Shown one piece after another: positions 28,350 to 31,737 of a stretch of 50,823 nucleotides of DNA (position 1 is its first letter; every line of letters begins with the position of its first letter). The notes under the pieces were generated by a model, which saw only the letters and a list, made by a program, of their open reading frames with translations, was not told the DNA's origin and did not search any database. Source of the stretch: an uncultured Mycoplasmatota bacterium (GTDB lineage: Bacteria; Bacillota_I; Bacilli_A; RF39; UBA660). The position numbers were made by a program, and so were the translations under genes. Location of the stretch: the NCBI GenBank assembly GCA_947574215.1, contig CANPIX010000006.1, positions 1 to 50,823 on the forward strand, in the 5' to 3' direction.

Positions 28350-29162
28350 GTGCTTCCGATATTATTTGTTTTAGGTATTATAGGGTGTGTTTTTGGTTCT
28401 TTTTTTTATGTTGTAGGAACTAGACTTCCAAACAATGAATCATTAATAAAACCAGCTAGTCATTGTACTTTTTGTAAAGAAAAGTTGAAGTGGTTTGAGT
28501 TGTTTCCGATAGTTTCTTTTTTATTATTAAAAGGCAAATGTCGTTATTGTCAACATAAACTTTCTAAAGAATATATTTTGTATGAAGTTTTTACGTGCCT
28601 ATTATTTATCATTTGTTATCTTAAATTTGGAATTTCATATGAATTTTTTGTTTCTATCATTTTAGCTTCTTTGATGGTTCTCATTTTTATTACAGATTTT
28701 AAATATATGATTATTTTAGATTCACCTTTGGTTGTAGCTAGTATTTTACTGTTTCTATTAAAATATATTTACTTTGGCTGGAATGAAGTTTTTTTCTCTT
28801 TTCTATGTGGCCTTTTTACTTTTTTAGTTATGCTTTTTATTGGTAAAATTGGAAATATTTTATTTCACAAAGAATCTCTAGGTGGGGGAGATATTAAATT
28901 TTCTTTTGTTATGGGTATAATTCTTAGTTACGGTATCTTTGATTGCTCTCATCTGTTTTGGTGTATTATTTCTATTCTTTTGGGAAGTAAAGTATCTATC
29001 ATGGCTTTAATTTTTTCTACATTTTTGGCTTTACCATATGCGTTAGGTTCGTTATTGCTAAAAAAAGATAATGCAGTTCCTTTTGGGCCTTTTCTAGTAA
29101 GTAGTACGTTTATTATTTTTTTCTTTTTTGAAAAATTTCAATATATATTGTATGCATTTTAA
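28350..29162 (+). CDS. pilD: Prepilin peptidase (A24)
   Basis: GSFFYVVGTRLP, CTFCKEKLKWFELFPIVSFLLLKGKCRYC, GGGDIKFSFVMG. Confidence 0.95.
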   Translation: MLPILFVLGIIGCVFGSFFYVVGTRLPNNESLIKPASHCTFCKEKLKWFELFPIVSFLLLKGKCRYCQHKLSKEYILYEVFTCLLFIICYLKFGISYEFFVSIILASLMVLIFITDFKYMIILDSPLVVASILLFLLKYIYFGWNEVFFSFLCGLFTFLVMLFIGKIGNILFHKESLGGGDIKFSFVMGIILSYGIFDCSHLFWCIISILLGSKVSIMALIFSTFLALPYALGSLLLKKDNAVPFGPFLVSSTFIIFFFFEKFQYILYAF

Positions 29163-29173
29163 AAAAACAAGTC
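29161..29173. terminator. left arm of bidirectional pilD/pilB terminator split by the IS (right arm 30437-30449)
   Basis: AAAAAAACAAGTC here and GACTTGTTTTTTT at 30437-30449 are exact reverse complements on either side of the IS. Confidence 0.8.
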
Positions 29174-29263
29174 ATTTATGAACTGCATCCCTTAGAGTAG
29201 ACATAATAAAAAAGCAGTTCAATAAAAGTGTTATAATACACTTCCGAAAGGAGGTGTATTTTT

Positions 29264-29560
29264 ATGGCTTCAAAGGGTCAAAAATTTAATAAATACAATG
29301 AAGAAATAATTTGCAAAGTATTAAAAGAACTACAAACAGGGAAGTCTAGCTTACAAATATCTAGAGAAAGAAATATTCCTGCAAAAACTATTAGAACATG
29401 GAAATTAAAAAGAATTCTTCATCCTGAAATGTATCCTAATCAAGGTCAAAAACGTGGCAGGCTTAAAGAATCTAACTTAACAAAAGAAGATTGGAAAGAA
29501 AGATATGAAATACTAAAAAAATACCAGACCTTCCTCAAGGCACAACGAGAGAAAAAGTAA
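29264..29560 (+). CDS. IS3 family OrfA (HTH)
   Basis: FNKYNEEIICKVLKELQTGKSSLQISRERNIPAKTIRTWKLK helix-turn-helix. Confidence 0.88.
   Translation: MASKGQKFNKYNEEIICKVLKELQTGKSSLQISRERNIPAKTIRTWKLKRILHPEMYPNQGQKRGRLKESNLTKEDWKERYEILKKYQTFLKAQREKK
29515..29521 (+). promoter_or_regulatory. A_AAA_AAA -1 frameshift slippery heptamer (OrfA to OrfAB)
   Basis: In orfA frame CTA AAA AAA TAC; the -1 frame is open from here through orfB (KKIPDLPQGTTREKVTFINLYRSNFKLVNMCDVLN...). Confidence 0.8.
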
Positions 29561-29601
29561 CTTTTATAAATTTATATAGAAGTAATTTCAAACTAGTTAA
29601 C

Positions 29602-30417
29602 ATGTGTGATGTATTAAATATAAATCCTAAAACTTATTATAAATATAGAAATAAAGAAGACCCTGACTACTATGATTATTTAATAATTAAGGAAATATTT
29701 GATGATTCCAAAGGTACATATGGTTATCGTAGGATTGTTGAAGGTTTACTCCAAAAATATGGTGTAGTTATGAATGGAAAGAAGGTATTAAGAATAATGA
29801 AAAAATATAACTTGATGGCTGAATACATAAGAAAATCAAAGAAAAAAAATAAAAACGAAAGAATAGAAGATAATGTAAAACCGAACTTACTTAAAAGAAA
29901 TTTTACAACTGATGCACTAAATAAAATTTGGGATACAGATATAACATATTTAATATTTAAAGGTTCCAGAGCTTATTTATCTACAATTATTGATTTATAT
30001 GATAGACATGTGGTCGCATATAAGATTTCAAAAAGAAATGATTTAAAACTAGTAATGGATACTTTAAATAAAGCTATAACAAAAGAAAAAGATGTACATG
30101 GATTAATCATTCACAGTGATCAAGGTTTCCAATATACATCTTATGAGTACAAAGCAATTTGTGAATCAAATGGAATACAAATATCTATGTCTAGAAAGGG
30201 TACTCCAATTGATGACTCTCCAATAGAAAGCTGGTATGCTCTTCTAAAAAAGGAAACTTTGTACAACAATAATATTACATCTTTACAAGAATACATTCAA
30301 CTTGTAGAAGAATGGATATTATTTTATAACACAGCCAGACTAAAGTCAAAAGTTAAGAAAAAGAGAAAAATAACTTTTCTCTTTTTAATATACTGCTTTT
30401 TTATTGATGTCTACTAA
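29602..30417 (+). CDS. IS3 family OrfB DDE transposase (unusual C-terminus)
   Basis: WDTDITYL, HSDQGFQYTSYEYKAIC, GTPIDDSPIESWYALLKKETL; rve core. Confidence 0.9.
   Translation: MCDVLNINPKTYYKYRNKEDPDYYDYLIIKEIFDDSKGTYGYRRIVEGLLQKYGVVMNGKKVLRIMKKYNLMAEYIRKSKKKNKNERIEDNVKPNLLKRNFTTDALNKIWDTDITYLIFKGSRAYLSTIIDLYDRHVVAYKISKRNDLKLVMDTLNKAITKEKDVHGLIIHSDQGFQYTSYEYKAICESNGIQISMSRKGTPIDDSPIESWYALLKKETLYNNNITSLQEYIQLVEEWILFYNTARLKSKVKKKRKITFLFLIYCFFIDVY
30358..30386 (+). terminator. hairpin at 3' end of IS3 orfB
   Basis: AAAAAGAGAAAA-ataac-TTTTCTCTTTTT perfect 12-bp stem. Confidence 0.7.
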
Positions 30418-30447
30418 ATAGGGTTCACATCATTAAGACTTGTTTTT

Positions 30448-31737
30448 TTATAAAGTTTCTATTGTTTCGGTTGTATCTACTTGTATCTCTTCTGTCTTTC
30501 CCATTAGAGCATTTTTTATAGCAGTATCTTCACTACCTAAATCATCATCAATATCAATAACTCTTAAAATTTCTTCAAAACTGGTTTGACCTTCCATGAT
30601 TTTTGTTAAACCATCTTCTAAAAGTGTTATAGTACCATTTTTGGCATATACAAGCTTTCTTAACTCTTCTTTTCGGACATTATTTGTTATAGCGTCTCGT
30701 ATATTTTGATTAATAACCAATACTTCTTGAACCGCAACACGTCCTTTATAACCTTGGTAACATTTGTCACATCCTACAGGCGCGTATATGTCGGTGATGT
30801 CCATATTAAGAACTTGTTTAAATACATTTTTTTCATAGGGGGTAGCAGGTCTTGAAGTACGACATTTTGGACAAAGTCTTTTTACCAATCTTTGGCTAAT
30901 AACTCCTGTTAAAGCAGAACCTAATAAATATCTTTCAACTTCCATATCTAATAATCTTTCGATTGTGTTTAACGAATTATTTGTATGGATAGTAGATAAA
31001 ACTAAATGTCCTGTGATGGAAGCACGAACAGCGATTCTAGCGGTTTCATCATCACGAATTTCTCCAATCATTATAACATTTGGATCTTGTCTTAATATAC
31101 TACGTAATGCATTAGCAAATGTAAGCCCGATTTCACTCATCGTTTGAACTTGATTGATTCCAGCTAATTTCATTTCTACGGGATCCTCAACCGTAATAAT
31201 GTTTCTCTCTGTAGTATTTAATATTTGTAGCATGGAGTAAACGGTTGTAGATTTTCCTGTACCCGTAGCTCCAGTAATTAAAAGAATACCATTTGGTTCA
31301 TTGATTAACTTTTGTACTTTTTCTAAGTTTTTTGCAGAAAAACCTAAAGACTCTAATCCGTTAGTACTCATTTTATAATCCAAAATACGAATTACAACTT
31401 TTTCACCGTAGACAGTGGGTAAAGTGGAAACACGTAAATCTAAATCGTCGTCTTGAATCAGGTTTTTAATGGCGCCATCTTGTGGTAGACGAGATTCTGT
31501 TATATTCATTCCTGAAATAATTTTGATTCGCGTAATCATTGGATTTTTTACAGATTCAGGAACAACTGCGTAATTTATTAATTCTCCATCAATACGAATT
31601 CTTACGTTTAGCACTGTAGGTGTTGGGTCAAAATGGATGTCACTCGCATTTTTTTTAGCAGCGTCTAAAACCATCTCATTTACAATATCCACTACAGGTA
31701 ATTTTTCATAATCGTATTCTTTAAACATATTTATCAC
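30448..31737 (-). CDS. pilB: Type II secretion/type IV pilus assembly ATPase PilB/GspE-type
   Basis: Walker A LLITGATGTGKSTTVYSML, IGEIRDDETARIAVRASITGHLVLSTIHTN, CPKC...GCDKC. Confidence 0.95.
   Translation of the reverse strand: MINMFKEYDYEKLPVVDIVNEMVLDAAKKNASDIHFDPTPTVLNVRIRIDGELINYAVVPESVKNPMITRIKIISGMNITESRLPQDGAIKNLIQDDDLDLRVSTLPTVYGEKVVIRILDYKMSTNGLESLGFSAKNLEKVQKLINEPNGILLITGATGTGKSTTVYSMLQILNTTERNIITVEDPVEMKLAGINQVQTMSEIGLTFANALRSILRQDPNVIMIGEIRDDETARIAVRASITGHLVLSTIHTNNSLNTIERLLDMEVERYLLGSALTGVISQRLVKRLCPKCRTSRPATPYEKNVFKQVLNMDITDIYAPVGCDKCYQGYKGRVAVQEVLVINQNIRDAITNNVRKEELRKLVYAKNGTITLLEDGLTKIMEGQTSFEEILRVIDIDDDLGSEDTAIKNALMGKTEEIQVDTTETIETL

Follow-up and report, generated by a model that had tools for sequence, protein, structure and literature searches.

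The IS150 element of E. coli, whose OrfB lies on the same branch of the IS3 family as that of the element described here, inserts in many genes, and its MG1655 copy at hokA has no obvious terminator palindrome. Terminator targeting is itself already known from other IS families: IS1272 and TnSha1 (IS1182 family) enter hairpins that share no primary sequence consensus, and several of these hairpins are confirmed terminators (PMC4923244). These differ from our element in transposase family and in their blunt insertion, which deletes part of the stem and makes no duplication. IS1630 (IS30 family, Mycoplasma fermentans) is reported to insert into inverted repeats, and it duplicates 16–26 bp of junction sequence (PMC3317919), rather than the 3–4 bp seen here. 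With a 3-bp target-site duplication (TSD) and an IS3 transposase, the element studied here belongs with neither the IS1182 nor the IS30 elements. Nearer in kind are IS1397 and ISKpn1, likewise of the IS3 family and likewise found in palindromes, whose transposase directs insertion into the loops of REP (palindromic unit) sequences (PMC1525189 and references therein). They use one defined repeat family, however, whereas the 84 palindromic targets collected here hold 80 distinct inner hexamers; here, moreover, close relatives differ in specificity, together with an HTH and a subterminal motif. In IS911, also of the IS3 family, OrfA is known to affect the choice of target (Loot 2002, cited in PMC6211511).

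The window (the whole stretch of 50,823 nt that was analysed) belongs to a 1.11-Mb draft genome of a small-genome member of the class Bacilli, in which we found one copy of the element, a count that is a lower bound because repeats tend to break draft contigs. The element is an IS of 1254 bp at 29179..30432 on the plus strand, and the first-pass annotation had already called it IS3/IS150-type, with which our results agree. Read directly, its termini are of the TG...CA form (starting TGAACTGCATCC at 29179 and closing GGGTTCACATCA at 30432) and are flanked by a TSD of TTA (29176..29178 and 30433..30435), as fits the TG...CA ends and 3–4 bp TSDs of the IS3 family; among 38 sites of relatives the TSD was 3 bp in 16 and 4 bp in 13. 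End alignment delimits terminal repeats kept in relatives, TGAACTGCATCCCTTAGAGTAGACAT at the left (29179..29204, plus strand) and the reverse complement TGATGTGAACCCTATTTAGTAGACAT at the right (30407..30432, minus strand). There are the two ORFs usual for the family, orfA (29264..29560, plus strand, 98 aa) and orfB (29602..30417, plus strand, as delimited by ORF rules), in relative frame −1 and probably joined by −1 frameshifting at an A7 run (29515..29521, plus strand), judging from the frames and from IS3-family biology. OrfB, a DDE transposase with Pfam domains HTH_21 and rve, scores 257.4 bits with NCBIfam NF033516 (transpos_IS3, cut-off 160) and by inspection retains the D, D and E residues. 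It falls beside E. coli IS150, not IS3 or IS2, in a tree made by a quick method and carrying long-branch warnings (SH-aLRT 86).

What the element interrupts is a bidirectional intrinsic terminator, as predicted from sequence and fold, between two convergent genes. The left arm AAAAAAACAAGTC (29161..29173, plus strand) and the right arm GACTTGTTTTTTT (30437..30449, plus strand) can be read directly as exact reverse complements, and excising the IS with one TTA restores AAAAAAACAAGTC-ATTTAA-GACTTGTTTTTTT, a 13-bp stem with a 6-nt loop, both points as the first-pass annotation had put them. The rejoined 32-mer folds into one hairpin of −12.9 kcal/mol (z = −5.8, equalled by none of 200 shuffles), its stem score is 31 where random flank positions have a median of 9, and the site has the intrinsic-terminator order of stem-loop and then T-tract. 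An intrinsic-terminator scan of the interrupted region gave no match, because these stems do not pass its overly strict G+C rule. Upstream is a pilD-like prepilin peptidase gene (28350..29162, plus strand), named from sequence motifs, its product having no match in NCBIfam; downstream is a pilB/gspE-like ATPase gene (30448..31737, minus strand), whose product scores 484 bits with type_II_gspE and 466 bits with type_IV_pilB, both under the curated NCBIfam cut-offs. The stop codons (29160–29162 for pilD, 30448–30450 for pilB) each share bases with the outer end of an arm, and both genes are intact, so the earlier claims, that the stops sit at the stem ends and that the element landed in the loop without damage to either gene, stand.

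An uninterrupted palindrome had also been expected at the empty site, and here the architecture was recovered but the exact allele was not. In most cases, sister species of the genus have only a compact A-stem-loop-stem-T palindrome between convergent pilD and pilB that overlaps or adjoins both stops (for example, AAAAGGCGAATCTATATTTCGCCTTTTTATAA in L013). The arm sequences vary by species, which is why no exact empty allele of the window site was found among them. From these sister species, the uninterrupted pilD-terminator-pilB layout is likely ancestral.

Loci of related elements were collected from public genomes, the records being mainly of uncultured Bacilli, Erysipelotrichaceae and Tenericutes assemblies, and sites were counted where both ends were identified. 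For copies outside the IS150 group, terminal-repeat similarity alone failed to find the ends, and multi-copy boundaries were used. We called a palindrome when the stem score around the duplication was at least 18, and took random flank positions and intergenic positions as controls, which reached that score in 1.9% and 6.9% of cases. Among close relatives, 32 of the 38 unique sites had such a palindrome centred on the duplication, including all 32 of the sites that bore a TSD. Other copies are thus not at random sites, and the hairpin or terminator preference suspected from the single insertion proved real.

Within the IS3 family, this preference extends over the whole IS150 branch, with exceptions given below. 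A broader survey of complete and draft genomes found 84 of 115 IS150-branch sites to be palindromic vs. none of 19 IS3-type sites (Fisher P = 5e–10). Mapped onto the OrfB tree (SH-aLRT 83 and 86 by the quick method, long branches flagged), 82 of 113 rows on the branch with E. coli IS150 were palindromic, and the IS3-type copies (0 of 19) were placed apart. The same contrast appears within single genomes: in G057 and G046 together, 4 of 4 IS150-type sites but 0 of 9 IS3-type sites were palindromic, a difference that speaks against survival bias. On the IS150 branch the exceptions are G149, G172a and G046c, the last a third group in G046, with TAAAATGTACCC ends and no palindromic site among three. 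We note that G046c (L174–L176) and G092b (L265–L267) are close relatives that both have TAAAATGTACCC ends, of which only G092b sits in perfect terminators. Some insertions were off centre, such as L154 in a terminator arm and L263 in an A-tract.

When right flanks were exchanged between sites, the share scoring at least 18 fell from 83% to 14%; the score therefore detects complementarity within each site, not the composition of A/T tracts. Insertion orientation relative to these tracts showed no bias (34 vs. 31). Terminators at the target sites were predicted from sequence.

Just inside the conserved terminal repeats, these elements carry a variable inverted repeat, an A-tract plus several bases, that differs even among close relatives. 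End alignment places it in the window at 29205..29220 on the plus strand (AATAAAAAAGCAGTTC, A-tract plus GCAG) and at 30392..30406 on the minus strand (ACTGCTTTTTTATTG, the reverse complement of A-tract plus GCAG). Left and right motifs of one element covary (z = 10), and the end motif resembles the terminator arms of the element's own target, with shared sequence in L035 (AAAAAACGAG), L036 (AAAAAGAAG), L067 (CAGTT) and L110 (GAGCTAA). Similarity between motif and own target exceeded that of permuted pairings (z = 5.7, with none of 20,000 permutations as high), an excess seen for each end separately and in the close clade alone (1 in 10,000) and the far clade alone (2 in 10,000); four other element stretches compared with the target arms gave no excess (z from −1.4 to 1.5). 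The match is limited to positions 1–3 after the A-tract (z = 3.4, 5.1 and 3.3), and on each side of the junction the target A-tract stops 11 nt short of it (interquartile range 10–12). A 3-nt match at a fixed 11-nt spacing is the signature of a protein reading short inverted motifs, not of long homology or a fold. Identical copies of one element, furthermore, had targets with a common prefix (1 in 5,000 label permutations), such as AAAGG in all four targets of G050a. For the window element itself the match is partial only (GCAG vs. CAAG), and for G050, G057a, G046a and G214 the targets were consistent per element, with no matching A-tract+NNN visible in the ends. In G214 (L224–L232), which comprises nine near-identical IS150-branch copies, most targets have CC(A/G)C after the A-tract.

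A candidate reader of this motif is OrfA, whose hypervariable N-terminal part is a predicted trihelical HTH and whose conserved C-terminal part is a predicted helix. In the AlphaFold2 model (pLDDT 85), the HTH helices span residues 13–25, 29–36 and 40–52 and the C-terminal helix 74–97; Foldseek against the PDB gave weak hits, none with E ≤ 0.001 and mostly to small HTH domains, including those of serine recombinases, IstA and the Sleeping Beauty PAI domain. Among elements whose OrfBs are 90–100% identical, median OrfA identity was 0.42 in the N-terminal part and 0.96 in the C-terminal part. Divergence of the N-terminal part is nearly unchanged at lower OrfB identity, and this flatness suggests exchange of the HTH rather than gradual change. 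Elements with near-identical HTHs share a motif: left motifs were similar in six of nine pairs at HTH similarity of at least 0.8, compared with 0–4% of pairs below 0.5, and the right-end motif similarity of near-identical-HTH pairs was 7.75, compared with 4.0 at comparable OrfB divergence. The association rests on few, very similar pairs, and HTH and motif similarity showed no global correlation over all pairs (Mantel 204/1000), as would be the case if specificity were kept only between closely similar HTHs.

We consider it probable that an element of the IS150 branch chooses intrinsic terminators through the reading of A-tract+NNN pairs by OrfA. The hypervariable HTH of OrfA, which would also form the N-terminus of the OrfAB fusion, would bind directly to an A-tract plus ~3 element-specific bases, a motif that occurs in inverted orientation at both IS ends, ~31–42 nt in from either terminus. 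A target would then need an inverted pair of the same motif ~11 nt to either side of the strand-transfer point, presumably in a symmetric complex, and terminators at gene 3′ ends (A-tract, stem, loop, stem, T-tract) provide such pairs. Insertion at terminator centres is what the data show; in this way the element would select intrinsic, mostly bidirectional terminators and enter at the dyad centre, with the 3–4 bp duplication falling in or at the loop. Lying at gene 3′ ends, terminators allow an insertion that spares both genes. Most likely, then, the site is chosen by a protein that reads bases and not by the folding of a hairpin, and the recognised feature is probably the inverted pair of A-tract plus ~3 specific bases, ~11 nt to each side, rather than the hairpin fold. 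A further proposal, to which we give about even chances, is a family of swappable specificity, in which the OrfA HTH cassette co-evolves with the end motif and reads the same code in terminators, so that its exchange redirects the element.

The transposase might instead read an extruded cruciform or hairpin loop irrespective of sequence, with the A/T tracts incidental, an explanation that we regard as unlikely. It would suit the small loops, with the duplication within the loop, and an inner stem that holds 0–0.13 bits of sequence information yet is paired in 86–98% of sites, in a set chosen by pairing. Pairing scored at a strictly constant distance from the duplication centre gave no information, being blurred by offsets of 1–2 nt. 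Inner pairing is to be expected anyway, terminators being palindromes, and structure alone does not account for the agreement, at three fixed positions, between target bases and the motif in the element's ends, for the target prefixes common to identical copies, or for the tracts, an A-tract and a T-tract occurring together in 65 of 72 targets but in only about one-third of background palindromes (61 of 181). The covariation between ends and the match to the target, in a variable stretch within otherwise conserved ends, could also bring to mind a nucleic-acid guide, whereby RNA or DNA of the variable subterminal stretch would steer insertion by base-pairing to the target stem; a match of ~3 nt at one fixed place is too short for this, and the hypervariable HTH is a simpler reader, making a guide quite improbable.

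That the motif resembles the current target might alternatively mean that subterminal sequence was copied from the target after insertion, recording rather than choosing the site. Near-identical copies at distinct sites nevertheless keep one subterminal sequence and have targets that share a prefix, and such capture would require conversion of both ends across the conserved terminal repeats; we think it very improbable. We give hardly any credence to near-random insertion followed by survival of harmless 3′-intergenic copies, which is already contradicted: palindromic sites do often lie between convergent genes (51 of 79), but intergenic control positions only rarely reach the score, in 79 of 84 cases no more than 1.5 nt separates the palindrome axis from the duplication centre, and IS3-type elements of the same genomes sit elsewhere.

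In the literature that we found, by a search covering neither ISfinder nor most subscription papers, terminator targeting across the IS150 branch was undescribed, and no paper tied target specificity to a subterminal motif together with a hypervariable HTH in OrfA, although prior notice of either is possible. For IS911, we know of no description of a hypervariable HTH matched to an end motif and to terminator arms. If true, our model accounts for the way in which much of a very common IS family reaches safe sites, via a layout common to its own ends and to terminators, and it supplies a natural series of DNA-binding domains paired with cognate motifs, a basis on which to derive a recognition code. 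Transposition could then be steered to gene 3′ ends, and IS150-type copies would mark terminators, amounting to an annotation prediction.

Hairpins within the element bear on the consequences of insertion. The AGGAGG ribosome-binding site of orfA lies in a predicted hairpin, ATACACTTCC-GAAA-GGAGGTGTAT (29235..29260, plus strand), whose sequence is kept in most relatives; the fold of 29179–29280 has z = −4.2. A pilD transcript would enter the element and meet this hairpin, which likely limits orfA translation from read-through transcripts. At the left end there is also an alternative fold, of TGAACTGC (29179–29186) with GCAGTTCA (29214–29221), that in the window shares bases with both the variable motif and the terminal repeat, and that relatives are often unable to form. 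Near the right end, the element's own hairpin noted at first pass is present at 30358..30386, a symmetric, A+T-rich 12-bp stem (AAAAAGAGAAAA/TTTTCTCTTTTT) that occurs in close relatives and in others gives way to another hairpin at that position. As a possible bidirectional terminator it could end transcripts from both sides, and it is a plausible substitute for the interrupted terminator, whose function it may restore. Close by, orfB has lost its stop, and its C-terminus runs ~20 aa beyond those of relatives, which stop near residue 250. The region of this loss (30345–30417) shows an apparent length change between repeated AAAAAGAGAAAAA tracts.
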